Below are positions 5,074 through 52,516 of a stretch of 64,000 nucleotides of DNA, piece after piece (position 1 is the first letter of the stretch; each line of letters opens with the position of its first letter). The translations under genes and the position numbers were made by a program. Under the pieces are notes generated by a model that was given only the letters and a program-made list of their open reading frames with translations, had not been told where the DNA came from and did no database searches. The stretch comes from Catellatospora sichuanensis (GTDB lineage Bacteria; Actinomycetota; Actinomycetes; Mycobacteriales; Micromonosporaceae), in contig NZ_VIQO01000011.1 of assembly GCF_007483665.1 (NCBI RefSeq), positions 248,001 through 312,000 on the forward strand, written 5' to 3'.

Positions 5074-5535
5074 GCGGCAAGGGTAACGGGTCGGCCATAG
5101 GGACGAATCCACCGGCAAGCCACGTCGCCTGCCGACCGCCCGGCACGTGGTGGCGCCGGGCCCAGGTGGCCGCCATCGGGCGTGCGTGAGCATTGCCCGG
5201 GCGGCGCGATTCAGCAGCGTCGCGCCGCCCCGCCATAGCCCGAATGATCGGCGACAACAATCCCCGGCACAGCCGAGAGCGGCCGGCCGAAACGGGTCAC
5301 CCGGTCGAAGGATCGAAAACTGCCACATCACCGGGTTGCAATGAAGTGGGCCCTACGCCTATTTGCATTCGCATGAAAAACCCCGGATTTATCCCGCGGC
5401 CACCGATGCCGGTCCCCTATTCGGCGACGGCCCAACGCCGATCACCATCGACACTTTCGCATGGAGAATGTCGCTTTACCTGCGCGGATGTGGCCGGAGG
5501 ACCCGGCCGCCAGCTCCACTCATGAGAGGAATGGC
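5074..5535. other. Intergenic region without a supported gene
   Basis: About 460 bases between divergent genes. Frames that stay open here have poor codon bias and no ribosome sites. The part from about 5340 is A/T-richer and probably carries the promoter of the secreted protease. Confidence 0.4.
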
Positions 5536-24285: not shown

Positions 24286-24289
24286 CGGC

Positions 24290-25447: not shown

Positions 25448-25463
25448 GGCGCTCGCTCCTAGC

Positions 25464-27077
25464 TCAGTCGGTGATCAGCGGGTCGGCGGTGTATGTGGCC
25501 GGATCGCCACGGTGGCAGCCCCAGCGGGCCAGCCGGTCCAGCAGCCGGTCCAGCACGGGCAGCCCTTCGGCGGGGTCGGGGTGGTCGCGGGGCAGCATCG
25601 CGATGCGCTCGACGGTCTTCTCCACCCGCAGGTTGTCCGCCCGGGACAGGGCCGGCATGAGCCACCGCTGGTAGGCGTCCTGCCAGATGATCAGCACGGC
25701 GTCGTCGTTGCGGCGGCGGACCTCGTCGAGGGTGCGGTGGTTGAGCGTGTACGCGGTGTCGACGTCCATGCCCACGTGCCGCCAGGAGAAGTCCGGGTTG
25801 GCCGGGTCGCTCACCTCGATGGCGAAGCGCTCCCGGTCCTGCCACAGCGGCATCGTCTCGTCGCTGACTCCGAAAACGCTGAGCGTGAAGTGCCCGGAGA
25901 ACTCGGTGGTGAGGAAGTCGTGGGTGAGCCGGTAGTCCTCGGGCGTCTCGCCCGGGTAGCCCACCATGAACGAGCACCGGTAGCCGATCGGGCTGCCGTT
26001 GAGCAGCTGGAACGCCTTACGGTTGGCGGCGGCGGTGACCTTCTTGTTCATGTTGCGAAGGCTCGACTCGCTCATCGACTCGAACCCGATGGACAGGGTG
26101 CGGCAGTGCGAGGCGGCCAATCGGGCCACGGTCCGCTCGTCGCGGATCGTATTGGCGCGGCTGTAGGCCTCCCAGGCCACTCCTGCGGACGGCAGCAGTT
26201 CGAACAGCCGCCGCAGCCGGGCGGGCGGCACCGTGAACGTGGAGTCCATCGCCTTGACGAAGGTTGCGCCGTTGCGTTCGGCGTAGCGGAGCCAGTCGTC
26301 GCGGATGCGTTCGGCACTGCGGTAGCGCCACTCCGGGCTGGCTGCCGGGAAGGAGCAGAATTTGCAGGCGAAAGGGCATCCGCGCATCGACTCGTACGGC
26401 ACCGACGGGTAGTCGCCTTCGAACGCGGGGGCGGGCAGGGCGTCGAAGTCGGCGTAGGTCACCGGGGTCTGGCGCAGCCGTCCCGAGGCGTCGCGATGCA
26501 CGAGGTTGGGCAGGTCTTCGGGCACCCGGCCCTGCCGCAGCCCGGACAGCAGCGGTGCCAGCACATTCTCGGCGTCGCCACGCACGATGACGTCCACCTC
26601 AGGGTGCTCCTGCATGATCTGCGCCCACTTGAGATTGCTGTACTGCCCGCCGAGCACCACCGGGCAGCCCGGCAGGTACTCGGTGAGCCAGCCCAGCGCC
26701 TTGGCCAGACTCACCCGGTCCCAGATGAACGTGGTCGACAGCAGCACCGCGCCGAAGTCGCCTGGCGGGACCTGCGCGGTGCCGTTCCACACCGCCGCAG
26801 TGTCGAGCACGGCGTGGTCCACACCGGCACGCGCCAGGATCGACTGCAGGGTGAACGTGGTCAGGTGCGGCACGGTCCAGCGGCGCGGGCGCATCAGCGG
26901 GTAGCGTGCCCCGCCGTGAGTGAAGCCGAGCTCGCTCAGCGAGAAGCCGCCGCGCTCGGCGAAGTACGCCCGCTCCACCCCGGGCGCATCGGCGGGACTG
27001 AACAGCGTCCCCCGCACATAACGGTCGTTTTTGTGGGTGGGTCCAAGCCCCGACACCAGCAGCACCCGCGCCGTCAT
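25464..27077 (-). CDS. B12-binding-type radical SAM enzyme
   Basis: 537 residues from ATG 27077 (ATGA overlap with the upstream gene). The first ~190 residues are the Rossmann-like cobalamin-binding module (VLLSTTFIWDRVSLAKALGW, CPVVLGGQYSN, VDVIVRGDAE) but no DxHxxG lower-ligand motif is seen, as in several tailoring members. The radical SAM core begins at MRGCPFACKFC with cysteines 234, 238 and 241 binding the 4Fe-4S cluster. Family reactions include methylation at unreactive carbons and ring rearrangement. Substrate unknown. Confidence 0.9.
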   Translation of the reverse strand: MTARVLLVSGLGPTHKNDRYVRGTLFSPADAPGVERAYFAERGGFSLSELGFTHGGARYPLMRPRRWTVPHLTTFTLQSILARAGVDHAVLDTAAVWNGTAQVPPGDFGAVLLSTTFIWDRVSLAKALGWLTEYLPGCPVVLGGQYSNLKWAQIMQEHPEVDVIVRGDAENVLAPLLSGLRQGRVPEDLPNLVHRDASGRLRQTPVTYADFDALPAPAFEGDYPSVPYESMRGCPFACKFCSFPAASPEWRYRSAERIRDDWLRYAERNGATFVKAMDSTFTVPPARLRRLFELLPSAGVAWEAYSRANTIRDERTVARLAASHCRTLSIGFESMSESSLRNMNKKVTAAANRKAFQLLNGSPIGYRCSFMVGYPGETPEDYRLTHDFLTTEFSGHFTLSVFGVSDETMPLWQDRERFAIEVSDPANPDFSWRHVGMDVDTAYTLNHRTLDEVRRRNDDAVLIIWQDAYQRWLMPALSRADNLRVEKTVERIAMLPRDHPDPAEGLPVLDRLLDRLARWGCHRGDPATYTADPLITD

Positions 27078-27529
27078 GGGTGTTCCCGTCGCAGCGGCGC
27101 CGCGCGGTCGGGGCGGCCGAGCCGTTCGTACTGACCGGCCAGCGCCGACCGGGCCGCCACCGGCACCGGTCCGGCTGCCGTCTGCACATGGACCGGGTCC
27201 TGGCCGGCCAGGAACGGCGCGGACCAGCCGTCGCCCACCCGGATGCGCAGGTCGCCCATCACCTCGACGTACATGTCGCCGACCAGGAAACGCCCGAAGT
27301 GCGAGTGCACCAGGTCGGTGCCGCTGTCGGTGACCGGCGTGAGCTGGAAGCGGGCGAGCCGGCGGCCGATCTCGTAGGCGCCGGGGGCGGTGGACTCCAG
27401 GTCGATGTCGCCAGGTGTCACGTCCAGTCCGTGCAGGGCCGCCGCGGCGGAGCCGCTGAGCACCCACGGCTGGGCCAGGCCGTCGAGTTCGGGCAGCAGC
27501 ACCGCGAGGGTGTGCAGGTAGGTCGTCAT
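27074..27529 (-). CDS. Small nucleotidyltransferase-fold protein
   Basis: 151 residues with the polymerase-beta-like nucleotidyltransferase core: PWVLSGSAAAALHGLDVTPG then DIDLES gives the G-S and D-x-D pair. A third Asp may be that in YVEVMGDLRIRVGDGW. It could adenylylate a small molecule or another protein. Overlaps both neighbours by four bases, so it belongs to the pathway operon. This is the first of two nucleotidyltransferase-fold genes in the locus. Confidence 0.7.
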   Translation of the reverse strand: MTTYLHTLAVLLPELDGLAQPWVLSGSAAAALHGLDVTPGDIDLESTAPGAYEIGRRLARFQLTPVTDSGTDLVHSHFGRFLVGDMYVEVMGDLRIRVGDGWSAPFLAGQDPVHVQTAAGPVPVAARSALAGQYERLGRPDRAAPLRREHP

Positions 27530-28440
27530 GCGGTGGCCGCGGCGGGCCGGGTCGCGGCTCGGGCCTGCCGCCAGCTGTGCCAGCTTTGCGGACCGGCCGC
27601 GCCGCGCACCCGCAGCGGCACGTAGCCGCGGCCGTGGATGCGCTGGTGCATGACCGAGTAGCCGTGCCGTTCCAGGTCGGTGGCCGGCCGTGACCCGGCG
27701 GTGGCCTCGAACCGCATGTCGATGCTCCAGCGCACCAGGTCGCGCCGGTTCTCGGTGCCGGTATGGGCCAGCAGATTGGTGAACACGAGCATGTCGCCGC
27801 GGCGCATCGGCACCATGGTCATCGGCTCGAAGGCCACCCGTGCCGCGGTGCGGCGGTAGATGGCGTCCTGGCGGTTCAGGCTGCTGCGGGTCACGTTGTC
27901 GGTGCCGGGCACGGCGCCGTCGAGCAGGCCCCAGCGGTGGCTGCCGGGCACCAGCACCAGGCAGCCGGAGTCGGCGTCGACGTCGACCAGCGGCAGCCAC
28001 ACCTGGACCATCTGCCACAGCAGGTGTTCGGTGCCCGCGCCGTAGAACTGGGCGTCCTGGTGCCAGGGCAGGCTGTCGAGGTGGCGTGGCAGGTAGGGCC
28101 GCAGGTGCGCGTTGCCCTGATAGGTGATCTCCTCGCCGAGCAGCGGAACCAGCGCGCCGGTCAGTTCCGGGCGCACGATCAGATCGCGGAACTGCTCGCA
28201 GAACAGCACCGGGTCCCATTCGCGGTTGTCCAGCGGGTGCCCGTCGTGAAGCCGGGCCAGCCGCCGCTCGAACGGCTCGTCGGGGTGGGTATGGGCCAGG
28301 CCGTGCCGGTCGGCCAGGCCGGGGGCCAGCGTGTCGACGCGGCGTTCCAGCACACTGATGAACGGCCGCAGGTGGGCGGGGTCGATGACCTGGCGCAGCA
28401 CCGCGTAGCCGTCGCGGCGGAATGCCTCCACATCGATCAC
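27526..28440 (-). CDS. Phytanoyl-CoA dioxygenase (PhyH) family oxygenase
   Basis: 304 residues from a GTG at 28440 overlapping the previous stop as GTGA. VEAFRRDGYAVLRQVIDPAH is the typical PhyH start; SLPWHQDAQFYG holds the iron H-x-D pair and NLLAHTGTENRRDLVRWS the distal His and the 2-oxoglutarate Arg. It should hydroxylate an unactivated carbon, most simply on the amino acid while bound to a carrier protein or on the finished peptide. Confidence 0.9.
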   Translation of the reverse strand: MIDVEAFRRDGYAVLRQVIDPAHLRPFISVLERRVDTLAPGLADRHGLAHTHPDEPFERRLARLHDGHPLDNREWDPVLFCEQFRDLIVRPELTGALVPLLGEEITYQGNAHLRPYLPRHLDSLPWHQDAQFYGAGTEHLLWQMVQVWLPLVDVDADSGCLVLVPGSHRWGLLDGAVPGTDNVTRSSLNRQDAIYRRTAARVAFEPMTMVPMRRGDMLVFTNLLAHTGTENRRDLVRWSIDMRFEATAGSRPATDLERHGYSVMHQRIHGRGYVPLRVRGAAGPQSWHSWRQARAATRPAAATA

Positions 28441-29525
28441 GGCCGGGTTCCGATCCGCGCGGGCAGGCCGGTGCCGATGTCGCCGTGCAGCAGGTCGATG
28501 TCGTCGGTCAGGCAGCGGCGCAGCAGCTCGCGCAGCCACGCCGCGGTCGCGGCCGGCAGGTCCGGGTAGTAGGTGGGATTCAGCAGCACCAGCAGCCGTT
28601 TGGCCAGGAACGGCGACATCAGCGCTGGTTCGGGTTCGACCAGCCCCTGGGTGGCGAACGTCTCGCGCATGGCCTCGAACCCGGCGCGATAGGCGCCGTC
28701 GAAGCGGCCGTGGCGGGCGTGGCCGAACCACAGGTAGTTGACCGCGAACGCGGCGAGGTCGTCGTACGGGTCGCCGACGCCTGGCAGGCGTGCCCCGATC
28801 AGATGCACCTGCCCGGAGGGGGCGAGGAACACGTTCCAGGGATGGAAGTCGTGGTGGACGTAGCGCAGCCGGTCGTGGCGGCCCGCGAGCAGCAGCCGCC
28901 ACCGGGCGCAGGCGTGTTCGACCTCGGCGCGTAGCCCGGGTTCGGCGGCCCACAGCGCGTCGGCGGTGTCGATCAGCCGGTGCACCGGCACGATGAGCGC
29001 GTCGCGGATCGCGCGCCGGTGCAGGGCCGGACCGCCGTCGGGCACCGGCCGGTGCAGCGCGATCATCGCCAGGGCGAGGGTGCGGCCGTCGGCGGCGGCC
29101 TGCCCGGCGCCGAGGGTGTCGAGCACGGCGAGCCGGTCGGCGTAGCGGATGCCGGGCTGGGCCCATTCCAGCACCCAGGGCGGGCCGTCGTCGGCGGTGA
29201 GCGGCTGCATGCCGTCGGCGGTGAAGCGGCCTGCGCCCGCGCACCGCACATGGCCGCTGAACCACGGGTAGCCTTCCAGCCGCCACGCCACCTCGCGTAT
29301 CGCGTCTGCGTCCAGCCCTTCGGCGTAGAGGTCTTCGCGAGGGGTCTTGAGGAATGCCGTGCGGACCTGCCCGTCGCATTCGACCTGCAGTTCGACAGAG
29401 TGGGTCATGCCGTGCGCCTTGCCGTCGCCGGGCTGGGCGAGCACGGCGGTGACCTTCGCGGGCCGGCCGAGCAGGGCACTGACGGCCCTGCTCCAGGCCT
29501 GTAGGTCACTGCCGTACGGGGGCAA
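28437..29525 (-). CDS. Aminoglycoside phosphotransferase-like kinase, second Asp missing
   Basis: 362 residues from a TTG at 29525, supported by AGAAGGA 7 bases before it; no ATG/GTG fits better. YVHHDFHPWNVFL is the kinase catalytic loop with the Brenner HxDxxxxN pattern. In the next motif the family has L-I-D-W; here it reads VHLIGARLPGVGDPYDDLA, so the metal-binding Asp is Gly. It may bind nucleotide without normal transfer or use another residue. The GDPYDDLA that follows is intact. Between the SPASM and PhyH genes, so its substrate is likely a pathway intermediate. Confidence 0.8.
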   Translation of the reverse strand: MPPYGSDLQAWSRAVSALLGRPAKVTAVLAQPGDGKAHGMTHSVELQVECDGQVRTAFLKTPREDLYAEGLDADAIREVAWRLEGYPWFSGHVRCAGAGRFTADGMQPLTADDGPPWVLEWAQPGIRYADRLAVLDTLGAGQAAADGRTLALAMIALHRPVPDGGPALHRRAIRDALIVPVHRLIDTADALWAAEPGLRAEVEHACARWRLLLAGRHDRLRYVHHDFHPWNVFLAPSGQVHLIGARLPGVGDPYDDLAAFAVNYLWFGHARHGRFDGAYRAGFEAMRETFATQGLVEPEPALMSPFLAKRLLVLLNPTYYPDLPAATAAWLRELLRRCLTDDIDLLHGDIGTGLPARIGTRP

Positions 29526-29572
29526 CGGGTTTCCTTCTGCTGCGGTGGGACGGTCGGCGGGCGGGGCCGGGT

Positions 29573-30835
29573 CTAGCGCGGGCGGCCGATCCAGGTGCAC
29601 AGGTAGTCCATGTGTACGAGCCGCTGCTCCGACACGATCTTCGGCCGCTGAGGGTAGGTGAAGTCCGGGTTGATGTCCTTGGGGCAGTACGGGTCCTTGG
29701 CGCGCATCGACCGTTCGTTGTTGGTGTGCATGTGGTGCAGGTAGGACCGGCCGCTGCAGCCGCCGCCGCACTGGCTGAGCAGGCTGCAGCCCGCGCATCC
29801 CTCGATGTGGCCGGGGTTGGCGTTGCGCTGGCGGAACACCTTGAACTGCGCGCTGTTGATGATGTCGATCAGGTCGTGCTGGAGCAGGTCCAGCGGGGAC
29901 TTGTAGTCGTGCAGGTACACGCAGGGGCTGATGTGGATCTGCTTGTCCGGCGTGATGGAGTGGATGCGGAACGAGGTGCGCCCGCAGGGGCAGCGCTTGG
30001 CCTCCTGGTAGTCGGTCACCCCGGCCAGCGGCGGCTCGCCCAGGTCGACCGGGTCGCACAGCTCCAGCAGCCGGGCGAAGCCCTCGTAGTACATGTCGGC
30101 CGGCAGTGCGACCTCCATGTGCTCGGGCTGCACCGGCTTCATCGGGTTGATGCGGATGTTGCCGTCGTAGCGCTTGGCGAGTTCGACCAGGCCCTCGATG
30201 TGCTTGAGGCTGAAGTTCCACTTCATCCCGCACATGATCGCGGTGTGCGGCTTGCCCTCTTTCTGGGCGATCTCCATCGACTCGACGGCCTGGTTGAAGA
30301 TGCGTGCGCCGCGGTTGCGGTTGTGCTCGTCCTCGAACGGGGAGTCGAACGAGATGTCGACGTCGTTGAGCTTCTCCCAGGCGGCACGGTGGTCGCGGTA
30401 CAGCCGCAGCAGCGTCACGCCGCTGGTGGTGAGCCCGACGATGACACCGGCGTCGACCAGCTTCTCGATGATCTGCGGCAGCTTGGTGTTCGCCGGGTTC
30501 GCGCCGTTGGTGAACAGTGGCTCGTTGCCGCCCAGGTTGACGGTCTCCACCCCGACCGCGACCAGCTGGTCGACGATCCGGTCGATCATCCAGTCTTCCA
30601 TGTCGGCGCCTTTGACCCGCGCGTTCATGCTGTAGCAGTGGTTGCACCGGTAGGGGCAGTCGTTGCCCAGCGTCCACCCGATGTTGCGGATCGTCGGAGG
30701 GCACTCGGGCAGGTCCCCGAACTCGTCGACCGGGCCGACGTTGAGCTGGTAGTGCTCGAACTGGTCGAACTCCTCCGGCAGATACCTCTTGGGCGTTCCC
30801 AGTTGCAGCACCGGTCGTGTGGGGACCTCGGTCAC
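29573..30835 (-). CDS. Radical SAM/SPASM enzyme
   Basis: 420 residues from a GTG at 30835 with AAAGGA 7 bases upstream. The 4Fe-4S motif is NDCPYRCNHCYS (Cys 60, 64, 67). The C-terminal third carries the auxiliary-cluster cysteines: KRCPCGRT, SPCVYL, and CAGCSLLSQCGGGCSGR followed by DPYCP. This SPASM layout is typical of enzymes that modify peptides (sactipeptide, quinohemoprotein, mycofactocin types), although some act on small molecules. With a 33-codon gene and a PqqD-like domain encoded divergently, a peptide substrate is plausible. Confidence 0.92.
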   Translation of the reverse strand: MTEVPTRPVLQLGTPKRYLPEEFDQFEHYQLNVGPVDEFGDLPECPPTIRNIGWTLGNDCPYRCNHCYSMNARVKGADMEDWMIDRIVDQLVAVGVETVNLGGNEPLFTNGANPANTKLPQIIEKLVDAGVIVGLTTSGVTLLRLYRDHRAAWEKLNDVDISFDSPFEDEHNRNRGARIFNQAVESMEIAQKEGKPHTAIMCGMKWNFSLKHIEGLVELAKRYDGNIRINPMKPVQPEHMEVALPADMYYEGFARLLELCDPVDLGEPPLAGVTDYQEAKRCPCGRTSFRIHSITPDKQIHISPCVYLHDYKSPLDLLQHDLIDIINSAQFKVFRQRNANPGHIEGCAGCSLLSQCGGGCSGRSYLHHMHTNNERSMRAKDPYCPKDINPDFTYPQRPKIVSEQRLVHMDYLCTWIGRPR

Positions 30836-30849
30836 GGCGGGTCCTTTCG

Positions 30850-32463
30850 TCAGTTCTCGAACAGGGCGGTGGCGGCCTTGCGTACGGCTTCGAGCTGAGC
30901 GGACGTCACTGCCCGGGTGTAGACCGACAGCGACCACAGCGACGAATACCTCTTGGTGATGCCGAGGGCCTCCTCGGCGTAACCGGTCGTGGCGGCCAGC
31001 TCGCCGAGCGGCAGCACAGCCCCGTCGGCCCAGCCGATCAGGACGTCCGGGTCCTTCATCTGCATGTTCAGCGGCAGGCAGGACACCACGATTTCCGAAG
31101 GCGGCACCCCGGGCAGCTCCTTGAGCAGCCGCTCCTCGATCAGATCGCGCTGCGAGGGCTCCTTGGCCGGTCTCAGCAGCTCCACGGCCGGCTCCGACAG
31201 CCGTGAGCGGTCCTCCAGCCGGTAGGCCTCGCGCCACAGCCGGCGTGCCTTCAGCTCGCCCATCACCGGACGGCAGTCCGGCGGCAGGTTGACCTTCAGC
31301 TCATCGGCTTCGAGGTAGTCGAGGAACTGGTCGTCGCCCAGCGCCAGCAGCTCCGGCTCCGGGAACGGCTCCCCCGCGTGATGGGAGTTGATGTTGCGGA
31401 TACCGCGGTCGAGCATGGCGTCGGCGGCGCACTTGCCCGGTGAGTACACGATGCGTTCGAGCACCTCGTAGCGCACACGCAGCAGGTCGACCACGTAGGT
31501 GACGGCGCGGTGGTTGACGCGCCCGTCGCCCACCGCCGACACCCCGAAGCGGAACAGCATGTCCACCGGCCGCCCGGTGGGGTCGGCGACCCCGGCGAGC
31601 AGTGCCGGTTCACGGCCGGCCGGCGGCGTGGCGAACACGCACACCGAGCGGAGCAGCTCGGCGTCGAACTGCCAGGGGGTGCTGGCGCCGAGGGTGTCGC
31701 GCAGCGAGAAGTCCAGCAGGTCCGTACTGACCGTCGCGGTCACCAGGGTCTCGACGAAGGTGTACACCGGCAGCAGCCGGGCCACCTCGGCGTCGGACTG
31801 GGTGGAGTGCCCGCCGGGCTTGCCGCTGAGCAGGTTGACCGAGGTCGCGACGGCCTCGGCGGCGTCGAGGTGCCGGTGCAGAGCGGCCAGGGTCTGGGCC
31901 CGCTCGGCCTCGTCCTCGATCGCGGCCAGCAGCGGCGAGTCGGTGACCTGTTCGGCGATGACCCGCACGTACTTGGCGAAGCGGGCGATGTTGCCGGGCG
32001 GCGGGTAGAAGCCGAGCTGGTAACTCAGCGTGTGTCCGAAGGGCAGCAGATCCGAGTCGTGCACCAGCGCGTACAGCCGGGCCAGCAGGTCGAGGGACAG
32101 GTCCGGGCCGAGCAGCGCCTCCAGGTGCGCCAGGCGCTCGCGGTTGCCGTCGATGTCGTGGTACCCGTCGCCGACGTGCTCGGCGTAGTCGTTGACGCGC
32201 ATCGCGTCGATGAACCGTGCGGTCCAGTACGCGGTGCCCATGCAGTGCGGCAGGCGGCTGTTCTCGTTGGTGGGGATGGTCAGGTAGGCCAGGCCGGTCT
32301 GGCGCAGTCTGGCCATGCGCTGCACCGCACCGGTCTCCAGCACGATGCGCTCGCCGAGAGTGAACTGGTGTCGCAAGCCAGGGAATACGAACGCCGACTC
32401 GGCGGGGCGCAGTAGGCGAGACACCGCGCGGGTTTTGCCGTCTCGGGCAGGCTGATGGTTCAT
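30850..32463 (-). CDS. SAMHD1/dGTPase-like HD phosphohydrolase
   Basis: 537 residues from ATG 32463. The metal ligands of the HD fold are all present: His73 in NSRLPHCMG, His135-Asp136 in YALVHDSDLLPFGHTLSYQL, and the late Asp in VSTDLLDFSLRDTLG, a pattern close to the dNTP triphosphohydrolase branch (which also has the PFGH block). It would cleave a nucleoside or sugar phosphate. First gene of the leftward eleven-gene chain. Such enzymes are rare in NRPS loci. Confidence 0.82.
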   Translation of the reverse strand: MNHQPARDGKTRAVSRLLRPAESAFVFPGLRHQFTLGERIVLETGAVQRMARLRQTGLAYLTIPTNENSRLPHCMGTAYWTARFIDAMRVNDYAEHVGDGYHDIDGNRERLAHLEALLGPDLSLDLLARLYALVHDSDLLPFGHTLSYQLGFYPPPGNIARFAKYVRVIAEQVTDSPLLAAIEDEAERAQTLAALHRHLDAAEAVATSVNLLSGKPGGHSTQSDAEVARLLPVYTFVETLVTATVSTDLLDFSLRDTLGASTPWQFDAELLRSVCVFATPPAGREPALLAGVADPTGRPVDMLFRFGVSAVGDGRVNHRAVTYVVDLLRVRYEVLERIVYSPGKCAADAMLDRGIRNINSHHAGEPFPEPELLALGDDQFLDYLEADELKVNLPPDCRPVMGELKARRLWREAYRLEDRSRLSEPAVELLRPAKEPSQRDLIEERLLKELPGVPPSEIVVSCLPLNMQMKDPDVLIGWADGAVLPLGELAATTGYAEEALGITKRYSSLWSLSVYTRAVTSAQLEAVRKAATALFEN

Positions 32464-32788
32464 CCGGCACCCCCGGCTCTTGAGAATGGACAAACGCCGA
32501 GGAAGCAGGCCCCGAGCGGGATCGAGGAACGCTAACAAGCAATTTTTCTACGATCAAGAGCACTGTACGCAGATTGTATGTCTCTTATACATCGGACATT
32601 CCGAGCGCTACCCAGAGGCCTCGCGGCGGACGGCGACAACGGACCCTGGCCGGAGGGAAGCGTGCGCACATAGGCAGCGAGATATCGACCGTCGACGGCC
32701 CACTGGGCGTCAAGAACATGTACTATGCTGCGGACCGCCGCCCGCCACACCTGCCGGCGGGCACCTTGCATTCCCATTCGGAGGCTTG
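32464..32788. other. Bidirectional control region of the biosynthetic locus
   Basis: Separates the leftward and rightward operons. The part 32527-32605 is A/T-rich for this genome, with a TGTAT...ATACA inverted repeat (32575-32591) as a possible operator. No open frame in 32464-32788 has both a ribosome site and good codon bias; the only supported small gene begins at 32789. Confidence 0.45.
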
Positions 32789-32890
32789 ATGAATCGGTCC
32801 GACAAAGGATTCCAAGGGCCTGATCTCCGTCGGTCCAATTACGTTTGCGATGCGCCCGGACGCACGCCCGCACCCAACGAAGGTCGGTAA
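32789..32890 (+). CDS. 33-residue small gene, candidate peptide precursor
   Basis: ATG at 32789 is preceded by CGGAGG with a 4-base gap, one of the best ribosome sites in the locus. The frame runs 33 codons (begins MNRSDKGFQGPDLRRS, has one Cys, ends TPAPNEGR) and its TAA overlaps the ATG of the carrier protein as TAATG, so the two are translationally coupled. Length, charge and lack of a family fit a RiPP precursor; a SPASM radical SAM enzyme and a PqqD-like domain are encoded close by. It could instead be a leader peptide that only tunes translation of the carrier protein. Confidence 0.5.
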   Translation: MNRSDKGFQGPDLRRSNYVCDAPGRTPAPNEGR

Positions 32891-33114
32891 TGTCTCAACA
32901 CATCGTCAGTGACGAACTACTTGCCAGGTGCGCAGACATTCTCGGTACGGAGGAACTGAGTCTGGACGACGACTTCTTCGGCGTCGGAGGCAACTCATTG
33001 GATGCCGTGGAACTCAGCGGACTGCTGAGCAAGGAGTTCGGCCGCGAGGTCACGGTCGACGACATCCTGCAGAGCGGCTCGTTCGACGAGCTCTTCCGGT
33101 CACTCAGGGCCTGA
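32890..33114 (+). CDS. Free-standing peptidyl carrier protein
   Basis: 74 residues. The 4'-phosphopantetheine site is Ser in DDFFGVGGNSLDAVELSGLL, the usual DxFFxxGGxSL motif. A discrete carrier protein of this type receives an amino acid from a stand-alone adenylation protein, and one is encoded 1.7 kb downstream in the same direction. Building blocks are often modified while held on such a protein. The start is coupled to the preceding 33-codon gene. Confidence 0.9.
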   Translation: MSQHIVSDELLARCADILGTEELSLDDDFFGVGGNSLDAVELSGLLSKEFGREVTVDDILQSGSFDELFRSLRA

Positions 33115-33150
33115 CCTCCTGTCCATGCATGGTTGAAGGAGCTGATCAGC

Positions 33151-34182
33151 ATGACGCCAGCGACACAGGCGAAGGAACTGCCTGACGAGATTCCGCCCGA
33201 CGTCCGCAATGAGATCCACCGATATGTGAAGACACTGCCGGACGACGCCTCCTGCATCGTCACCGGCTCGATCGTCGAGGGCATCGGCAACATCAATTCC
33301 GACATCGACCTCTACATCATCCAGCAGGCCGGCAGCTTCACACCCAAGCCCATCGCCATCGGGATCAGAGAGTCCCGCTACATGGACCTGGAGTTCCTGA
33401 GCGACCAGACGGTGCGGCGGCTGGCCGAGAAGTTCGCCGATCCCGCCGCCGACGTGCTCCAGGATCTCAACGACCGCGACTTCGACCGCTATTACCGGAT
33501 AGCGATCGGCATCCCGCTCGTGGCCGAGGACTGGGTGCACGACATCCTGCCGGAGTTCACCGTCGACCGCTCGCGCGCCCTGTTCTCCCGCAAGGCCATG
33601 GTGCGGGCATACCACCACCTGGCCCGCGGAGCCGTCGCACACGCCATGGGACAGACCCGCGGCGCCCAGGTCCTGCTCCGGGAAGCCGCGCTGTGGCGGG
33701 CCACGAGCGTGCTCGCCGACGCCGGGGAGGGCTATCCCTCCATCAAGTGGGCCGAGGTCAAGGCAGCTCGCCACTTCGGTGCCGGCACTGCGCAGTACAC
33801 CGCCTGTTTGAGCGGCTACCTGGATTCGTCGCCGGACACCACCACCCATCTGTCGCAGGCACGTGAGCGGATCCCGCTGACCGACGACGTGCGCCAGGCG
33901 TTCCCCGACCAGCCCTGGGAACTGGCCGAGAACGTCCAGGTGATCACTGACGGCGACGCGCAGTATCTGGTGCGCGGTGCGCAGTCCGTGGCCCGGGTCT
34001 CCGGTGTCGTGGCGCTCGTCATCAGCGAGCTGGCGGCCGGAGCGCCCTGGACGGACGCCACGGCGAACATCGCTACGAAGCTGCAGGTCTCCCGCGGGGA
34101 GCTGGGCGCCGCCGCGTCCGCCGTGCTCCGCGAGCTGGGACGAGGCGGCTATCTGCACCGCAGCGCAGGAGAGGTGGCATAG
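33151..34182 (+). CDS. Nucleotidyltransferase with PqqD-like C-terminal domain
   Basis: 343 residues from ATG 33151 (GGAG 9 bases before). The N-terminal domain has the polymerase-beta-like signature CIVTGSIVEGIGNINSDIDL. The last ~70 residues (SVARVSGVVALVISELAAGA, ATKLQVSRGELGAAASAVLR, ELGRGGYLHR) follow the winged-helix pattern of PqqD/RiPP recognition elements, which bind leader peptides. That fusion is uncommon. It suggests that nucleotidyl transfer is directed to a peptide or carrier-bound substrate. The PqqD-like call is by pattern only. Confidence 0.6.
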   Translation: MTPATQAKELPDEIPPDVRNEIHRYVKTLPDDASCIVTGSIVEGIGNINSDIDLYIIQQAGSFTPKPIAIGIRESRYMDLEFLSDQTVRRLAEKFADPAADVLQDLNDRDFDRYYRIAIGIPLVAEDWVHDILPEFTVDRSRALFSRKAMVRAYHHLARGAVAHAMGQTRGAQVLLREAALWRATSVLADAGEGYPSIKWAEVKAARHFGAGTAQYTACLSGYLDSSPDTTTHLSQARERIPLTDDVRQAFPDQPWELAENVQVITDGDAQYLVRGAQSVARVSGVVALVISELAAGAPWTDATANIATKLQVSRGELGAAASAVLRELGRGGYLHRSAGEVA

Positions 34183-34184
34183 CC

Positions 34185-34754
34185 GTGTCCGTGGTGGCGA
34201 AACCGCTGAAGACGTGGGTCAAGGAGCACAGCGACCTCAACTACGAGCACCTGGCGACGATGGCGCTGCGGCACGACCTCGACGGCGCCCTCGACGCCGG
34301 CCAGCTCGGCCTGGCATGGTGGGCGCAGCAGCAGATGCTCCTCAACAGCGTCGTGCTCTTCCTGGCTGACGCGGGCATCACGGTGCCCTGGTCGGAGGAC
34401 CGGCTCGACCGGGCGATGCAGGCGATGCAGCTGCTGGAGGGCCTCAACCCCGCGCTCGCCGATCAGGTGTGGCAACGGTGGCTGGCCCCGATCCCGCCGG
34501 TCGACGACCTGGTGCACGAGATCGACCGGACCATGGAATTGATCACGAGCGGCCTCAAGGTCCCGTTCGCCTCGTCGCGGGACGAGACGGTGATCAAATG
34601 GGCCACCAGCACCAAGATCGTCCGGACTGTGGCGCAGCAGCTGGGCATCGCCCAACGCGATGACTGGTACGTCAGCGACCCCACGGTCAGCGAGCCCGAG
34701 CTCGACTGGTACGGCGAGGTGCTCAAGACCCTCGAGAAGAGCCAGCCCAAGTAG
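34185..34754 (+). CDS. Hypothetical protein of the biosynthetic locus
   Basis: 189 residues from a GTG two bases after the stop of the preceding gene, so co-translated with it. All-helical look: NYEHLATMALRHDLDGALDA, LAWWAQQQMLLNSVVLFLAD, RLDRAMQAMQLLEGLNPALA. It may be the helical substrate-binding partner of the nucleotidyltransferase. Tyr/Trp-rich C-terminus (DDWYVSDPTV, ELDWYGEVL). No catalytic motif and no known family recognised. Confidence 0.6.
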   Translation: MSVVAKPLKTWVKEHSDLNYEHLATMALRHDLDGALDAGQLGLAWWAQQQMLLNSVVLFLADAGITVPWSEDRLDRAMQAMQLLEGLNPALADQVWQRWLAPIPPVDDLVHEIDRTMELITSGLKVPFASSRDETVIKWATSTKIVRTVAQQLGIAQRDDWYVSDPTVSEPELDWYGEVLKTLEKSQPK

Positions 34755-34766
34755 GGATCACCGCCG

Positions 34767-34819
34767 CGGTGGCGGTGGGCGGGCCGGCCCGGGGCCGATC
34801 GGCTCGCCCACCGCCGCCG
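34767..34819 (+). terminator. Long stem between hypothetical gene and serine adenylation gene
   Basis: A ~15-pair stem (34767-34781 with 34805-34819, core GGCGGTGGGCG/CGCCCACCGCC) encloses a 23-base G/C-rich loop with its own pairing. It lies 12 bases after the stop of the preceding gene and 46 before the next start. It can act as terminator or partial attenuator. Confidence 0.5.
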
Positions 34820-34865
34820 TCAGGCCGGTCCCGCGCATTCCGCAGCCTGCCAGAGAGTCGAACCG

Positions 34866-37121
34866 ATGAATACAGCGTCGCAGGACGTTGGCGCTGAGCG
34901 CCGCGAGCCCGACGACAGGGCCGATGCCGGCTCGCTGCCGCCCGACTTCCCTCGGGGCGCCCGACCGGGCGGTCGCGACCGGGTGTCGCGCATGCTCGCC
35001 CTGCCGCAGCACAACTGCTCGGACCAGGAGCTGTACACCGTGGCGACGGCGGTGCTGGCCGTGCTCGTCGCCCGGTACACCGGCTACGGCCCGGTGGCCG
35101 TCGGCCGAGCGGACATGGCCGGTGGCGAGGAGCTGGAGCTGCGCAGTTCGGTCGAAGCGACAGACACTTTCCAGAGCCTGACCGCGCGGCTGCGCGATTC
35201 CGGGTCCGATGCCGCCCAGCACACCGCCGACCCGGCCTCGACGCGGATGCAGGACGAGCTCACGCCCGCCCCGCACCGCATCGGGACGGCGATCGTGTGG
35301 GACGGCGAACGCCAACCACCGGCCGCGTCGGCCACCCGGGCGGCACTGCTGTTGCGCATCGCCGCGCCCTCGGCTGACGGCCTGCAGCTGAGCGCCGACT
35401 TCGACAGCTCCCGCTACTCCACCGCGACGGTCCGGCGGGTGCTCGACCAGTTCGCCGTGCTGTGGTCGCACGCGCACAGCGACGCCGCTGCCGAAGTCGC
35501 CGCCGTCGCCCTGACCAGCGCCGAAGATCTGGCCCTGATCGCCGCGTGCAACGACACCTCATGCCCGTACGACGACCGGGCCCGCATCGATGAGATGCTG
35601 GCGCGCACCGCCGCCGCGCACCCGCAGGCGCCCGCGGTCGTGGGCGATGGCTTCTCGCTCACCTACGCCGAGTTCGATCGGCAGGTCAACCGGCTCGCCC
35701 GCACGCTTGCGGGCCGAGGCGCCGGCCGCGATCAGGTCATCGCCGTCATCGCCGAGCGGTCCCCGCAGATGCTGGTCGCCGTCTATGCGATTCTGCGCGC
35801 CGGCGCGGCGTACCTGCCGGTGGACCCCGGCTACCCGCAGGAGCGGATCGAGTACATGCTCGCCGATTCCGGTGCGTGCCTGGTGCTCGCATCGCACGCG
35901 TGCGTGGCCGGCCTGGACCGGCGCCATCAGATCATCGACCTGGACAGTCCCACGTCGTACAGCCCCGACGATTCGCCGTTGCCGGTCGCGGGCTCCAGCA
36001 CGGATCTGGCCTACGTCATCTACACGTCGGGTTCGACCGGCAATCCCAAGGGTGTGATGATCGAGCACCACTCGGTCGTCAACCGGATCAGCTGGATGCA
36101 GAAGGCCTATCCGATCGCGCCCGGCGACCGGATCCTGCAGAAGACCCCGATCTCCTTCGACGTGTCGGTGTGGGAGCTGTTCTGGTGGGCGTTCGAAGGA
36201 GCGACGGTCTGCCTGCTCGAACCGGAAGGCCACAAGGACGCCGCCAGGATGATCCGTTCCGTGCACGACCACGGCGTCACCACGATGCACTTCGTGCCGT
36301 CGATGCTCACGGCGTTCCTGTCGTTCACCGATCAGGTCGACGCCGCGGCCCGGTTGAAGTCTCTGCGGCAGGTCTTCTCCAGCGGCGAAGCACTGGGCTC
36401 CCATCACGTGGACAGGTTCCGACGCCTGCTCGCCGACCCGCACGGCACCGAGCTGATCAACCTGTACGGACCGACCGAGGCCACCGTGGACGTCTCCCAC
36501 TACAGCCTGCTCCACCACCGGGGCGACACCCGGATTCCGATCGGCACACCCATCGACAACACGCGGTTGTACGTGCTGGACGACAGGTCGCGCGTCCAGC
36601 CGGTCGGTATGCCTGGAGAGCTCTGCATAGCCGGCGTCAACCTCGCCCGGGGCTACCTCGACCGGCCCGAGCTGACCCGGGAGAAGTTCGCCGAGAACCC
36701 GTTTCCCGGCGAGGCGAGGATCTACCGGACCGGCGACCTGGCCCGCCTGCTGTCCGACGGCAACATCGAGTACCTCGGACGCATCGATCATCAGGTGAAG
36801 CTGCGGGGGTATCGCATCGAACTCGGCGAGATCGAGCAGCGACTGCGCACGCACCCGGCCGTGGCCGAGGCTGTGGTCACGGTGCGCGAACGACGGGAGC
36901 AGAAGTACCTCTGTGCCTACGTGCGGACGGTGGCGCAGTGCTCCGACGAGGACCTGACCCACCATCTGCGCCGGGGACTGCCCGAGTTCATGATTCCCAC
37001 GCACATCGTCGTGCTGGATTCGTTTCCCCTCACCCCCAGCGGCAAGCTGGATCGACGGGCGCTGCCCGAGCCGCCCCGAAGGCCCCGCCGGGACGCCGCG
37101 CGACAGGCCGGATCTCGATGA
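34866..37121 (+). CDS. Stand-alone NRPS adenylation protein, serine code, with half C domain
   Basis: 751 residues. Residues ~1-220 look like the C-terminal half of a condensation domain (YTVATAVLAVLVARYTGYGP, DELTPAPHRIGTAIVWDG, LQLSADFDSSRYST) with no HHxxxDG, so it is not catalytic. Residues ~235-740 are a full A domain (A3 YTSGSTGNPKG, A5 NLYGPTEATVD, A7 YRTGDLARL, A8 GRIDHQVKLRGYRIELGEIE, A10 SGKLDR). Reading the ten pocket positions gives DVWHFSLVDK, the known serine-type code. It has no carrier domain, so it should load Ser on the free PCP at 32890. Confidence 0.88.
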   Translation: MNTASQDVGAERREPDDRADAGSLPPDFPRGARPGGRDRVSRMLALPQHNCSDQELYTVATAVLAVLVARYTGYGPVAVGRADMAGGEELELRSSVEATDTFQSLTARLRDSGSDAAQHTADPASTRMQDELTPAPHRIGTAIVWDGERQPPAASATRAALLLRIAAPSADGLQLSADFDSSRYSTATVRRVLDQFAVLWSHAHSDAAAEVAAVALTSAEDLALIAACNDTSCPYDDRARIDEMLARTAAAHPQAPAVVGDGFSLTYAEFDRQVNRLARTLAGRGAGRDQVIAVIAERSPQMLVAVYAILRAGAAYLPVDPGYPQERIEYMLADSGACLVLASHACVAGLDRRHQIIDLDSPTSYSPDDSPLPVAGSSTDLAYVIYTSGSTGNPKGVMIEHHSVVNRISWMQKAYPIAPGDRILQKTPISFDVSVWELFWWAFEGATVCLLEPEGHKDAARMIRSVHDHGVTTMHFVPSMLTAFLSFTDQVDAAARLKSLRQVFSSGEALGSHHVDRFRRLLADPHGTELINLYGPTEATVDVSHYSLLHHRGDTRIPIGTPIDNTRLYVLDDRSRVQPVGMPGELCIAGVNLARGYLDRPELTREKFAENPFPGEARIYRTGDLARLLSDGNIEYLGRIDHQVKLRGYRIELGEIEQRLRTHPAVAEAVVTVRERREQKYLCAYVRTVAQCSDEDLTHHLRRGLPEFMIPTHIVVLDSFPLTPSGKLDRRALPEPPRRPRRDAARQAGSR

Positions 37122-37719: not shown

Positions 37720-40700
37720 GTGGCGATGAGTGACCCGCTGCCGTACGACGAAGTCAGGCCGGCCAAGCTCCCGCCGATGTCCTTCGGCCAGGAACGGATG
37801 TGGTGGCTGCAGCAGCTCGATCCGCACAGCACCGCCTATGGCGTGCTGCTGGCGTTCGAGTTCTCCGCCCCCGTCGACAGGCGAGCCCTGGCGGCCGCGC
37901 TGGCGAAGCTCGTCGATCGGCATCGGATCCTGCGTACCCGATACGTCACCGACGCGGCCGGGCTGCCGACCGTGGACGTGGTGAGCGGCTTCGCGATCCC
38001 GCTGTCGTGGCACGACACGACCGAAGCCCCGCACTGGCTGCCGATCGCTGACGCCGCAGCGTCGGTGCCGTTCGACCTGGCACTAGCTCCACCCATCCGG
38101 GCGATGGCGGTCACCTGCGCCGACGGTCCGGACGTACTGATCCTGTCGATGCATCACATCGTCACGGACGGCTGGTCGCTGGGCCTGTTCGAGCGCGACC
38201 TTCTCGCGCTGTACCGCGCAGAGCTGGGCGAGCCGGACACCGGCCTCGATCCCCTGGTCGCGCAGTACGACGAGTTCGCCGACGCCCAGCGCACACGCTT
38301 GAACGAAGCCGTCCTCGGGGAGTACCTCGATTACTGGACCGGCGAACTCGCCGACTTCGAGGTCCTCGAATTGCCGCTGGACCATTCGCGGCCCACCGTG
38401 CCCGACTTCACGGCAGGTTCGGTCAGCGCGACGATGTCGGCAGAACGGACCGCAGAGCTGCGCGAGCTGGCCAATCGGGAGCGCTGCGCGATCTCCAGCG
38501 CCCTGGCGGCGGCGTTCAGCATCCTGCTCTCCGCCCACTCCGGCCAGCAGGACATCACGATCGGTTCGATCCAGGCCGGGCGTGCCCTGCGTAAGTACAA
38601 GGACCTCATCGGATACTTCGTCAACACGGTGGTGCTGCGTACCCGGCTGGACACGGCCGGCACATTTCGCGAGCTGCTGAAGCACGTCAACGCCAAAGCC
38701 CTCGAGGGATATCGCCGGCAGGACACCCCCTTCGAACGGGTGGTGGCGGCCGTGCAGCCGCAGCGCGACTCCGGGCGCAACGCGATCTTCGATGTGATCT
38801 GCGTCCACAACGGGGATCGCCGCACCGACGCAGGCGGCACCCGGGTCGAGGCCTTCAAGCGTGTCTACCGGACCGAGTCGGTCGTCCGGTTCGACCTGGA
38901 GTTGGACACGATCGTGCTGGACGGCTCGCTGACCATCAAGATCGGTTACCGGAAGGACCTGTTCGCGCAGCGCACCGCCGCTCGGCTACTGCGTCAGTAC
39001 GTGCTGATCCTGGAGCAGGTCGTCGCGAATCCCGATGTCGAGCTGACCGCGATCAACCTGCTGGATCCCGCGGAGCGCGGCCTGGTCGTCGACGCGTGGA
39101 ACCGGACGGATCGCCCGGTCGGCGAGGGCCTGATGGACGGCTGTCTTGCGCTGAGAGCAGCCCGCGATCCGGACGGGATCGCATTGGTGTTCGCCGGCTC
39201 GGCCATGACATACGCCGAGCTGAACTCCCGGGTCAATCGACTGGCGCGAGTGCTGGTCAGCTATGGCGTGGCAGCCGAGGTGGCGGTCGGGCTGGCCCTA
39301 CCCCGCGGCAGCGAGCAGATCGTCGCGCTGCTCGCCGTGCTGAAGGCGGGCGGCGTATGCGTGCCGATAGAACTCGACCATCCCCGCGAGCGCATCGCGC
39401 AGGTGCTGAGCGACTCGCGCCCCGCGGTGCTGGTCACCGTGGGCGCGGTGCGGGAGTCGCTGCCGGACGCGGTGGGTGGGGCCAGGTTCCTCGTTCTGGA
39501 CGAGGCGAGCGACATCGCCCTGATAGCCGCTGCGTCTGCGGCCGATCTGACCGATCGGGACCGGCTCGCGCCGCTGCGTCCGGACAACGCGGCGTACGTG
39601 ATCTACACCTCTGGCTCGACCGGCAGGCCCAAGGGGGTGGTGGTCGCCCTTCGGAGCCTGCGCAACCTGCTGGCCTACCAGGAGGCCGAGCTGTTCGGCC
39701 CGCACGCCGAGAAGCTGGGCCGCGAGCGCTTACGGGTCGGGCTGAGCGCCGCGCTGTCCTTCGACACGTCATGGGAAGGGCCGCTGGCCATGCTCGCCGG
39801 CCACGAGCTGCACCTGATCGAGGAGGACGTACGGCGCGACCCGCATCGGCTGGTGGCCTATGTCGGCACGCACGGGCTGGACTTCCTGGACATCACGCCC
39901 TCCTATGCCGAGCAGCTGGTCGAGGCGGGCCTGCTGGACGGTTCGACCGGGGCACCGTCATTGCTGATGCTCGGCGGTGAGGCTCTCGGCCAGGAGCTGT
40001 GGGACCGGTTGCGGTCGACGCGCGGTGTGGACAGCCGCAACTACTACGGACCGACCGAGTGCACCGTCGATGCCTTGAGCTGGCCGGTGGCCGAAAGCGG
40101 GCGGCCGCTGGTGGGACGGCCGCTGTGGAACACGCGTGCGTACGTGCTCGACGCCGCGCTTCGCCCGGTGCCTCCCGGCATGCCCGGCGAACTCTACCTG
40201 GCGGGTGTTCAGCTGGCTCGGGGTTACCTGGGCCGGCCCGCGCTGACCGCGGAACGGTTCGTGGCCAATCCGTTCGGGCCGGCGGGTGCCCGGATGTACC
40301 GCACCGGTGATCTTGTTCGGTGGACCGATGACGGCGCGATCGCCTACCTGGGACGGGTGGACGAACAAGTCAAGATCCGAGGATTCCGGATCGAGCCCGG
40401 AGAGGTCGAACTGGCCCTTCGCCGGCACCCGGATGTCGCGCACGCTGCGGTCATCGTTCGGGGCGACGCGGCGGCGCAACGGCGGCTGGTCGCGTACGTG
40501 GTCTCGCGATCGGGCCGCGTGGACAGCGCGGCACTACGCCGCTTCCTGGGCGACCTGCTGCCGACGTACATGATTCCGGCGGCCTTCGTGGGACTGGACG
40601 AGCTTCCGCTGACCACGAGCGGGAAGCTGAACCGGCGCGACCTCGCCGATCCGGAGCCCGAGGCCGCGGGCACCGGCCGCAGCCGGCGCTCGCCTCGCGA

Positions 40701-43700
40701 GGAGATCCTGTGCGGGCTGTTCGCCGACCTGCTCGGCAAGGACGTGGTCCGTGCGTTCGACGACTTCTTCGAGCACGGCGGTCACTCGCTGCTGGCCACC
40801 CAGCTACTGAGCCGGGTCCGGGCGAGTTTCGGGGCCGAGTTGTCGGTCCGCGACGTCTTCGAGAATCCGACCCCGGCGGGCCTGGCCGCGATCATGGACC
40901 GCGAGAAGGGGACGTGGACACCGTTGAGCGCCCGGGCCCGTCCCGAGCGCCTGCCGCTTTCACCTGCCCAGCAGCGGCTGTGGTTCATCGCTGAGGCCCA
41001 GGGGCCGAGTTCGACCTACAACATCCCGGTCGCCTACCGGCTGTCCGGGTCCTTGGACCTGCCGGTGCTACGGGCAGCGCTGGCCGACGTCGTCGAGCGG
41101 CATGAAGCCCTGCGTACGATCTTCCCCGTCGCGGACGGCACCGCCTGTCAGCACATTCTCCCGCCAGGTGACGCCCACACGGATCCGGCGGTCGTGGATG
41201 TCGCACCCGGTGAGTGGCCGAGCATCCTTCGCCGGGCCGCCGAGTACAGATTCGACCTGACCGTGGACCTGCCGATCCGGTGCTGGGTCTTCCGGCTCGC
41301 CCGGCAAGAACACGTGCTCGCCATCACCCTGCATCACATCGCCGGCGACGGCTGGTCGATGGGGCCGTTCTGGCGGGACCTGGCAGCGGCGTACCGGGCG
41401 CGCAGCGCTGGTGAGCCGCCCGGCTGGCAGCCCCTGCCGGTGCAGTACGCCGACTACACACTCTGGCAGCAGGAACTGCTCGGCGACGAGGCGGACCCGA
41501 CCAGCCTGGCGGCGCGGCAGCTGGCCCACTGGCGGTCCGCGCTCGACGGATTGGCCGAGGAACTGCCTCTTCCCGCGGATCGGCCCCGACCGGGCACCCC
41601 GAGCGACCGGGGCGACGGTGTGGCGCTGACCCTGCCCCCCGAACTGCAAAGACGCCTGCGGGAGTTGGCGCTGCAGACACGGTCGAGCATGTGCATGGTG
41701 TTGCAGGCCGCGGTCGCGGCACTGCTTCACCACCACGGCGCCGGCACCGACATCGCGTTGGGCGGCGTCGTCGCGGGCCGGCGCGATGAGAAGCTCAATG
41801 ATCTGGTCGGCTTCTTCATCAACACGCAGGTCCTGCGCTACGACCTGTCGGGCGATCCGACGTTCCATGAGCTCGTGGCCAGAGTGCGCGAAGCCGACCT
41901 GACCGCCTACGACTGCCAGGACCTGCCGTTCGAGCGGATCGTGGAGGCGGTCAACCCGGTCCGCTCCCTTGCCCGCCATCCGCTGTTCCAGGTGATGCTG
42001 GTCTACCAGAACGCCGACGAGAGCACCCTGTCGCTTCCGGGCATCGAGGCGAGCCCGGTGTGGTTCGACACCATGACCGCCAAGTTCGACCTGGCGTTCA
42101 GCTTCCTGGAGCCTGCGGGCGACGAAGGCATCCACTGCCTTGTCGAGTTCGCCACCGACCTGTTCGACCGGGCCACCGTCGAGCAGATCTGCGGCCGGCT
42201 GGAGCGCGTCCTGTCCGCCATGGTGGCAGACCCGCACCGGCCGATCGGCCAGGTGAGCCTGCTGACCGGCGAGGAGCGCGACCAGGTACTCGTGACCTGG
42301 AACGGCACGGACCGGCTGCCCCAGGCCTGCAGCGTGCCCGAGCGGTTCGACGCCCAGGTCGCGCGGAACCCCGACGCGATCGCCGTCTCATGCGGTCGGC
42401 GCGCGCTGACCTACCGGCAACTGGACGCGAGCGCGAACCGGATAGCCGCCGCGCTCGTGGCCCACGGCGTCCAGCCGGAGCAGCGGGTCGCGTTGCTGAG
42501 TGAGCGTTCCATCGAGTCGGTGGCGGCGACACTGGCGATCCTGAAGGCCGGTGCGGCCTACGTCCCGCTGCGCCAGGCGGATCCGACCGACCGGATCAAG
42601 CAGGTGATCAGCGAGTCAGGGACCGTGTTCATGCTGGTCGGAGCCGGCATGTCCGCTCGCGCGACAGAGTTCGGCGTCCCCTCTTCCGTGCTGCCCAGCC
42701 GGCTCCTCGACGATGGGCCCGCCGAGGCGCCGCCGGCGGTGCGGATCAGCCCCGACCGGCTCGCCTACGTCATCTACACCTCCGGCTCGACCGGCGTGCC
42801 GAAGGGTGTCGCCGTCACCCATCGCAACATCGTCGAGCTGACCGCGGACCGGCGCTGGGACGGTGGCGCACACGACCGTGTGCTCCTGCACTCGCCGCCC
42901 GCGTTCGACGCCTCGACCTACGAGCTGTGGGTGCCGCTGCTGCGCGGAGGACAGGTGGTGGTGGCGCCGCCGGGTGAGCTGGAGGTGGACGGCCTCGCCG
43001 CCGAACTCGCCCGGCACCGCGTCACCGGCCTGTGGTTGACCTCTGGACTGTTCCAGCTTGTCGCGGACGCGCGGCCGCAGTGCCTGGCCACCGTCCGAGA
43101 GGTGTGGACAGGCGGGGACGTGGTGCCCGCTTCGGCAGTGCGCCGCGTCCTCGAACACTGCCCCGGCACGGCCGTGACCAACGGCTATGGCCCGACGGAG
43201 ACCACGACCTTCGCCACCGGCCACCGTGCCGAGGCGGCCACGGCGCCGACCTCGGGCTTTCCCATCGGTGCCCCGTTGGACAACACGAACGTCTACGTCC
43301 TGGACGGGGCCTTGCGTCCGGTGCCGCCCGGCGTCGTCGGGGAGCTGTACATCGCCGGAACCGGCCTGGCGAGGGGGTATCTCGGTCGCCCGGCGACGAC
43401 GTCCGAGCGGTTCGTGGCCTGCCCGTTCGGCACGCCGGGGTCGAGGATGTACCGAAGCGGTGACCTGGTGCGGTGGAACAAGGGCGGTCTGCTGGAGTAC
43501 CTGGGACGCGCCGACGACCAGGTGAAACTTCGGGGCTTCCGGATCGAGCTCGAAGAGGTCACGGCCTCGATCCTGGCCCACCCCGGCGTGGCTCAGGCAG
43601 TCGCCGTGGTCCGTGAGGATCAACCGGGAGACAAGCGGCTCGTCGGTTACGTGGTCGCGGCTGCGGCCCGGCCCGCGGATCCGCAGGCCGTCCGGCAGTT

Positions 43701-52500: not shown

Positions 52501-52516
52501 GTCGCACGACTCGCGC

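Follow-up and report, generated by a model that had tools for sequence, protein, structure and literature searches.

RREs are known binders of ribosomal peptides, and RRE domains are usually taken as markers of ribosomal-peptide pathways. Nucleotidyltransferases (NTases) also occur in lasso-peptide clusters, where they are sometimes fused to the B2 protease, and the pseudomycoidin NTase is reported to attach hexoses to the phosphorylated lasso peptide (passages of PMC8498205); daptide clusters, which use RREs, contain NTases as well (passages of PMC10036551). Among nonribosomal pathways, daptomycin-type lipopeptide starters are handled by a FAAL together with a free acyl carrier protein (PMC9113097). 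The string 'nucleotidyl' is absent from the main texts of two RRE surveys (PMC7470986 and PMC12710340), and our literature search returned no description of a module joining an NTase-RRE protein and a free carrier in an NRPS locus. A preliminary description of the DNA analysed here had called its combination of parts undescribed; within the range of that literature search, this holds for the pairing, in an NRPS locus, of a free carrier with an NTase that bears a lasso-B1-like RRE. Its further reading as a radical SAM RiPP pathway within the NRPS locus is not supported here, neither for the precursor candidate nor for the membership of the SPASM enzyme.

Organization of the locus

The window, as the whole analysed stretch of 64,000 nucleotides is called hereafter, comes from Catellatospora sichuanensis (GCF_007483665.1, contig NZ_VIQO01000011.1, positions 248,001 to 312,000 of the forward strand), and its features are collected in Table 1. 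It holds an NRPS locus with a free-standing carrier protein, that is, a small protein with the attachment serine in GGNSLD, and an A domain lacking a carrier of its own. The A-domain segment contains FDVSVW, HFVPS, FSSGE and LYGPTEATVD; its pocket, read by eye at presumed Stachelhaus positions rather than by a prediction tool, is DVWHFSLVDK, which we take to be a serine code. H189 matched nothing in Pfam and NCBIfam searches. On the divergent strand, the HD-like protein gave a weak PDB match to HD-domain proteins, inside residues 32-113, and the second radical SAM protein gave a B12-binding match below the cut-off. No lasso B2 protease or C cyclase was present among the Pfam matches of the 30 window proteins scanned. 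ABC transporter genes separate the NRPS gene from LanC-like and lantibiotic-dehydratase genes (52421-56942) that lie ~4.5 kb past its end and may be a separate lanthipeptide cluster; a terpene synthase gene (19139-20353) is situated close to the distal end of the tailoring block.

Table 1. Positions of features in the window, counted from its first nucleotide, and of peptide cassettes at other loci.
Feature	Position	Strand	Remarks
GGAGG, candidate ribosome-binding site of the 33-codon frame	32780-32784	+	spacing 4 to ATG
33-codon frame MNRSDKGFQGPDLRRSNYVCDAPGRTPAPNEGR, probably no gene	32789-32890	+	ATG 32789, TAA 32888-32890
Free-standing carrier protein, 74 aa, GGNSLD site	32890-33114	+	PF00550, 52 bits
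NTase with C-terminal RRE domain, 343 aa	33151-34182	+	
RRE domain (NTase residues 254-340)	33910-34170	+	
H189, helical, HEPN-like protein, 189 aa	34185-34754	+	conserved partner
Adenylation (A) domain without carrier domain	34866-37121	+	PF00501; no PP-binding match
Three-module NRPS: 3 condensation, 3 adenylation, 3 carrier stretches, thioesterase	37720-47865	+	
HD-like (phosphohydrolase-type) protein, divergent	30850-32463	-	weak PDB match; 65 % identical copy in L037
Radical SAM/SPASM enzyme, gene 2 of divergent block	29573-30835	-	PF04055 53.5 bits; TIGR04085 27.1 bits
APH-like gene (named by eye), between SPASM gene and remaining block	~28463-29546	-	limits approximate
Further divergent genes, for a PhyH-type dioxygenase, a second radical SAM protein, an amidohydrolase and an aminotransferase	23098-28434	-	
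YxxP cassette	L031:481-2389		
YxxP cassette	L032:8767-10738		
YxxP cassette	L047:5118-6980		
YxxP cassette	L048:2974-6007		
YxxP cassette	L050:956-6723		

The NTase-RRE protein and its conserved neighbours

In a structure model, the C-terminal part of the NTase is predicted to form a β-sheet followed by three helices, matching solved RREs across the domain. The modelled RRE has a lasso-B1-like fold, beyond chance, and this outcome of the fold comparison bears out the PqqD/RRE look that the preliminary description had noticed at this end. Pfam PqqD (PF05402) matched neither the window NTase nor the five carrier-type relatives scanned, the fold being seen from the model. Against NTP_transf_2 the NTase scored weakly, with 18.6 bits where the cut-off is 21, and Pfam left its end unassigned; the GS motif with catalytic acids in its N-terminal part, together with a predicted ANT fold, places it in the ANT/KNTase-like superfamily. 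The GS...D-x-D motif and a third acidic residue (G39, S40, D51, D53 and D79) are invariant in eight sequences. Mean pairwise identity is 31 % in the RRE region versus 42 % in the NTase region, a difference that would suit RREs adapted to different individual partners. A match of the NTase to DUF6001 (PF19464) stayed below the cut-off (20 vs 25 bits), and this family is named in no paper found by the literature search. PDB sequence searches with the NTase and with the SPASM enzyme gave nothing useful; the window NTase had no match in the plasmid collection. A first genome-contig scan and a scan of viral sequences yielded nothing.

Nine loci are of the carrier type, namely that of the window, L012 and L024-L030. 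In each of them, genes for a carrier protein and for a relative of H189 lie at most ~2 kb from the NTase-RRE gene, and four gene orders occur. A FAAL-like ligase adjoins in five of them, none was seen near L028, L029 and L030 within the stretches examined, and in the window the A domain lies near the place taken elsewhere by the FAAL-like ligase. A tree built from 22 NTase domains unites the nine carrier-type proteins in a single clade (100/100), inside which the window sequence stands next to L024 and L025. The RiPP-type sequences are grouped (92/90), four rows with long branches making their inner order unsure, and a third group (99/98) consists of three fusions of NTase, RRE-like and helical parts; the window NTase is not in the clade of the RiPP-type NTases from the YxxP cassettes described below. 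In L007, L019-L021 and L023, proteins were recognized by eye that unite a nucleotidyltransferase, an RRE-like part and an H189-like helical part in one chain, those of L019-L021 with an acyl-AMP-ligase-like part ahead of the nucleotidyltransferase. Also by eye, a poly(A)-polymerase-head-like protein was seen between the carrier and H189 in two loci of the carrier type (L013:8038-8784 and L014:8081-8812), the latter of which (Catellatospora tritici) has a second, separate PqqD and nucleotidyltransferase pair (4043-5308) ~4 kb from the fused NTase-RRE module.

YxxP cassettes, the divergent block and the 33-codon frame

In L031 (Microbacterium), L032 (Blastococcus), L037 (a Streptosporangiaceae bacterium) and, from the plasmid collection, L045-L048 and L050, an NTase more distant from that of the window and a PqqD protein are accompanied by a peptide of 21-23 residues with Y-x-x-P near its N-terminus. 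Such a peptide is present in eight of the ten NTase loci examined, and all eight have a PqqD-like protein or stretch (in L045, at 10838-10987 on the minus strand, E 1.6e-6). L049 (Agrobacterium) gave neither a convincing peptide nor a PqqD, and no YxxP peptide was found near the second NTase and PqqD pair of L014, whose best small frame scored 8.9 bits. The scoring model was background-corrected and built from seven peptides chosen with the help of the motif; only the peptide of L047, where the motif had picked none, was found by the model without being part of it, with GGAGG and upstream of a CPBP gene. When each peptide was left out in turn, it came first in its own locus in six of seven cases, and for the L048 peptide one other frame of 293 scored as high. 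True peptides left out of their own model scored 7.2-21.5 bits (L037 14.5, L045 14.8, L048 7.2); the model is imperfect, the highest background frames reaching 14.0 (L036, without SD), 13.1 and 12.3 bits and so coming near the L037 and L045 peptides. L033-L036, which have short NTase matches only, served as background except for L035, which was unused, and of 11 matches in the plasmid search six (L045-L050) were examined and the other five left out. The distance from peptide to NTase is ~5 kb in L045, L046 and L050 and ~3 kb in L037. The cassettes often include a CPBP protease (read by eye in L031, L032 and L037, annotated in L047 and L048) or an MFS transporter, and asnB also occurs in L046 and L050. 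Among 149 genomes of its genus, the L031 NTase was present only in its source genome. The L037 peptide, MRKYKAPRLRKVSIRSAGNML (13910-13975, minus strand), has an 8-base SD match and is followed by a terminator-like inverted repeat. Possibly, the YxxP, PqqD and NTase cassettes represent an undescribed peptide-nucleotidylation pathway, for which they offer a directly testable candidate in Actinomycetota and on one Bacillota plasmid.

The divergent block of the window recurs in L037, where eight genes, beginning with the HD-like gene and ending with the one past the aminotransferase, stand in the same order with 45-86 % identity (HD-like 65, SPASM 86, APH 65, PhyH 71, radical SAM 79, amidohydrolase 74, aminotransferase 63 and next gene 45 %); L037:14218-20073 is the copy of the HD-like/SPASM block. 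The YxxP peptide of L037 and the HD-like gene diverge from each other, just as the 33-codon frame and the HD-like gene do in the window. Of the 341 and 354 genomes searched in the two families, none but the source genomes of the window and of L037 gave the HD-like gene, and because of this rarity its adjacency to NTase and RRE genes in both the window and L037, a locus chosen for its NTase, is unlikely to have arisen by chance. A minimal form of the radical SAM block is L042:10697-13530 on a Phaeobacter inhibens plasmid, in which a SPASM protein (66 % identical over 409 residues) lies beside an HD-like protein (31 %). No NTase or PqqD was found by tblastn in the 25 kb searched, and thus both genes can work without them; the best frame of the Phaeobacter stretch scored 10.2 bits, without SD and antisense within an annotated gene. 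An inorganic diphosphatase and a GNAT protein are also encoded nearby. Across ~20 kb at each of the eight other carrier loci no HD-like gene was found, and the sole sign of a SPASM relative was a partial match (23 %) in L027; distant PhyH relatives (24-27 %) were seen in three. The divergent SPASM gene of the preliminary description is present, but the HD-like gene lies between it and the carrier, and neither the other carrier loci nor the Phaeobacter plasmid supports its proposed place in the same conserved unit. In our reading, the radical SAM block tailors a small moiety and gives no proof of a RiPP; a looser idea is that its SPASM and HD-like pair might belong to an oxetanocin-like nucleoside pathway.

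The 33-codon frame had been taken for a gene with a GGAGG site, coupled to the carrier as TAATG. Frame, site and overlap are as described, the carrier ATG (32890) sharing one base with the TAA, but the codon usage and shuffles argue against a gene. Its G+C by codon position is 0.67/0.58/0.58, versus 0.69/0.47/0.87 in the NTase gene, 0.68/0.40/0.95 in H189 and 0.65/0.36/0.77 in the carrier, the stretch upstream of the frame having 0.62 G+C. Moreover, an SD-bearing frame of at least 15 codons was present in 383 of 2000 dinucleotide-preserving shuffles of the 426-nt intergenic stretch, so that its presence needs no explanation. Conservation at related carrier loci, by which the frame was to be judged, failed: with carrier starts assigned by eye, none of the eight other loci (L012, L024-L030) has a frame with SD of at least 5 overlapping the carrier start. 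In L012 and L028 there are frames with SD 4 or 5 close to the start, each of them within an upstream H189 or NTase gene, and in L024 a 69-codon frame overlaps the start as TGATG without SD. The 33-codon frame is probably an accidental upstream frame and not a gene. That it is translated, merely as a leader coupling or regulating carrier translation, would agree with the well-spaced GGAGG, the one-base overlap and the weak SD of the carrier itself (AAGG, spacing 3), but is unlikely in view of the absent codon bias and of the eight loci without a counterpart. Very improbable, in our estimate, is the frame as a RiPP precursor that the fused RRE would hold, that the NTase and the SPASM enzyme would modify and that would end up attached to an NRPS product. 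This candidate looked promising at first: the 33-mer contains FQGPDLRR, near the lasso leader motif YxxPxL, and, of the 1553 small frames in the window, it alone combines that motif in a loose form with SD of at least 5 (~0.45 expected as the product of marginals, 77 x 9 / 1553); scored with a simple BLOSUM profile from three peptides it ranked 2 of 1418 (p 0.0076 relative to shuffled versions of itself), and its divergence from the HD-like gene is like that of the L037 peptide. However, it failed the background-corrected model, leave-one-out and codon tests. With the seven-peptide model it scored 2.2 bits, well below the true peptides, and ranked 362 of 1418 small window frames and 19 of 72 SD-bearing ones (best of the whole window, 9.6 bits, without SD), while in 15 other loci 94 of the 328 frames with an SD scored at least as high; its GC3 is 0.58 versus 0.70-0.90 for six measured YxxP peptides, and local alignments to the three peptides gave p 0.07-0.11 singly and 0.024 together. 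The verdict on the 33-mer depends on the scoring, of which the corrected, cross-checked seven-peptide model is the better one. Collectively, neither the 33-mer, background-like beside true YxxP peptides and lacking counterparts, nor any YxxP-type peptide was found to be an encoded RiPP precursor in the window, and no YxxP peptide of 21-23 residues was recognized in its locus.

Two further explanations concern the NTase itself. The NTase and RRE may have been native to short ribosomal peptides, the carrier having replaced the peptide and the radical SAM block having been kept. Such a swap is suggested by the eight-gene block, which abuts a peptide, PqqD and NTase cassette in L037 and a carrier-type module in the window, and by the HD-like gene confined to these two source genomes; we consider it rather unlikely, however, as it concerns two loci, one of them selected through its NTase, as the Phaeobacter plasmid keeps the SPASM and HD-like genes on their own, and as carrier- and RiPP-type NTases are well separated in the tree. 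Alternatively, the NTase and H189 could be an MNT-HEPN pair, that is, a toxin-antitoxin or regulatory switch, parked in the cluster. HEPN proteins have the catalytic motif R...H. Although NTase and HEPN-like folds are adjacent and MntA-HepT entries appear in the fold-match lists, the match of H189 to HEPN is within noise for helical bundles, the carrier adjoins in 9/9 loci, an RRE is attached to the NTase, and in other relatives ligase, NTase and helical part make up a single chain, which makes an MNT-HEPN pair improbable.

A proposed carrier-protein nucleotidylation module and its relation to known systems

On the observed domain folds, conserved gene company and clade separation, the + strand genes at 32890-37121 could well form a carrier-protein nucleotidylation module in the NRPS cluster, a proposal that we make tentatively, with confidence slightly short of the middle. 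The stand-alone A domain, read as serine-specific, would load the free carrier protein in trans, and the ANT/kanamycin-type NTase, helped by H189, would put a nucleotide, probably AMP, on the carrier-bound residue, most plausibly on the seryl hydroxyl. Nucleotidylation would make the hydroxyl a leaving group, which could be eliminated or substituted ahead of transfer of the residue to the NRPS, and the RRE would hold the carrier or another protein segment, with no ribosomal precursor involved. The conserved gene company is read most simply as serine loading, followed by nucleotidylation and then by transfer to the NRPS. We count in its favour the RRE and NTase folds, the invariant catalytic residues, the gene company in 9/9 loci, the single clade, the serine-code reading and the divergent RRE region, and against it the known role of RREs as binders of ribosomal peptides, the peptide kept by RiPP-type relatives, the HEPN match in noise, the presumed nature of the serine code and the FAAL not seen in three of nine loci.

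A doubtful, though conceivable, extension is that one RRE-guided nucleotidylation chemistry operates on two scaffolds, namely on short YxxP ribosomal peptides, alongside PqqD and in many cases a CPBP protease, and on the carrier proteins of NRPSs, where the RRE is part of the NTase chain and a HEPN-like partner is present. If so, the same radical SAM block would feed or act on a carrier in the window and a ribosomal peptide in L037. An RRE on an active-looking NTase that keeps company with carriers in 9/9 loci would extend the marker rule for RREs, and such loci would warn genome miners against RiPP-hybrid calls.

Several described systems share parts with this module. Like the lasso B1 proteins (TbiB1, LarB1) and other PqqD-type RREs, the window protein has an RRE, but one that is fused behind a nucleotidyltransferase, escapes Pfam PF05402 and belongs to a module without a convincing ribosomal precursor. 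The ANT(4') kanamycin/aminoglycoside nucleotidyltransferases resemble the window NTase in the N-terminal fold and catalytic acids, whereas the latter shares ~12 % identity with them, probably acts on a carrier-bound substrate, has an added RRE and is accompanied by a separate helical partner. MntA-HepT likewise pairs a nucleotidyltransferase with a neighbouring HEPN-like helical protein, but the carrier in all nine loci, the RRE and the weak HEPN match set the present module apart. As far as the cited passages describe them, the lasso and daptide NTases have in common with the RiPP-type loci that an NTase works in an RRE-using pathway; they serve in secondary tailoring of a ribosomal peptide, whereas the window NTase is RRE-fused and lies in an NRPS locus. 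Daptomycin-type starters are similar in that a free carrier and an AMP-forming ligase feed an NRPS, to which the window adds the NTase-RRE protein and H189, with the serine-read A domain in place of the FAAL.
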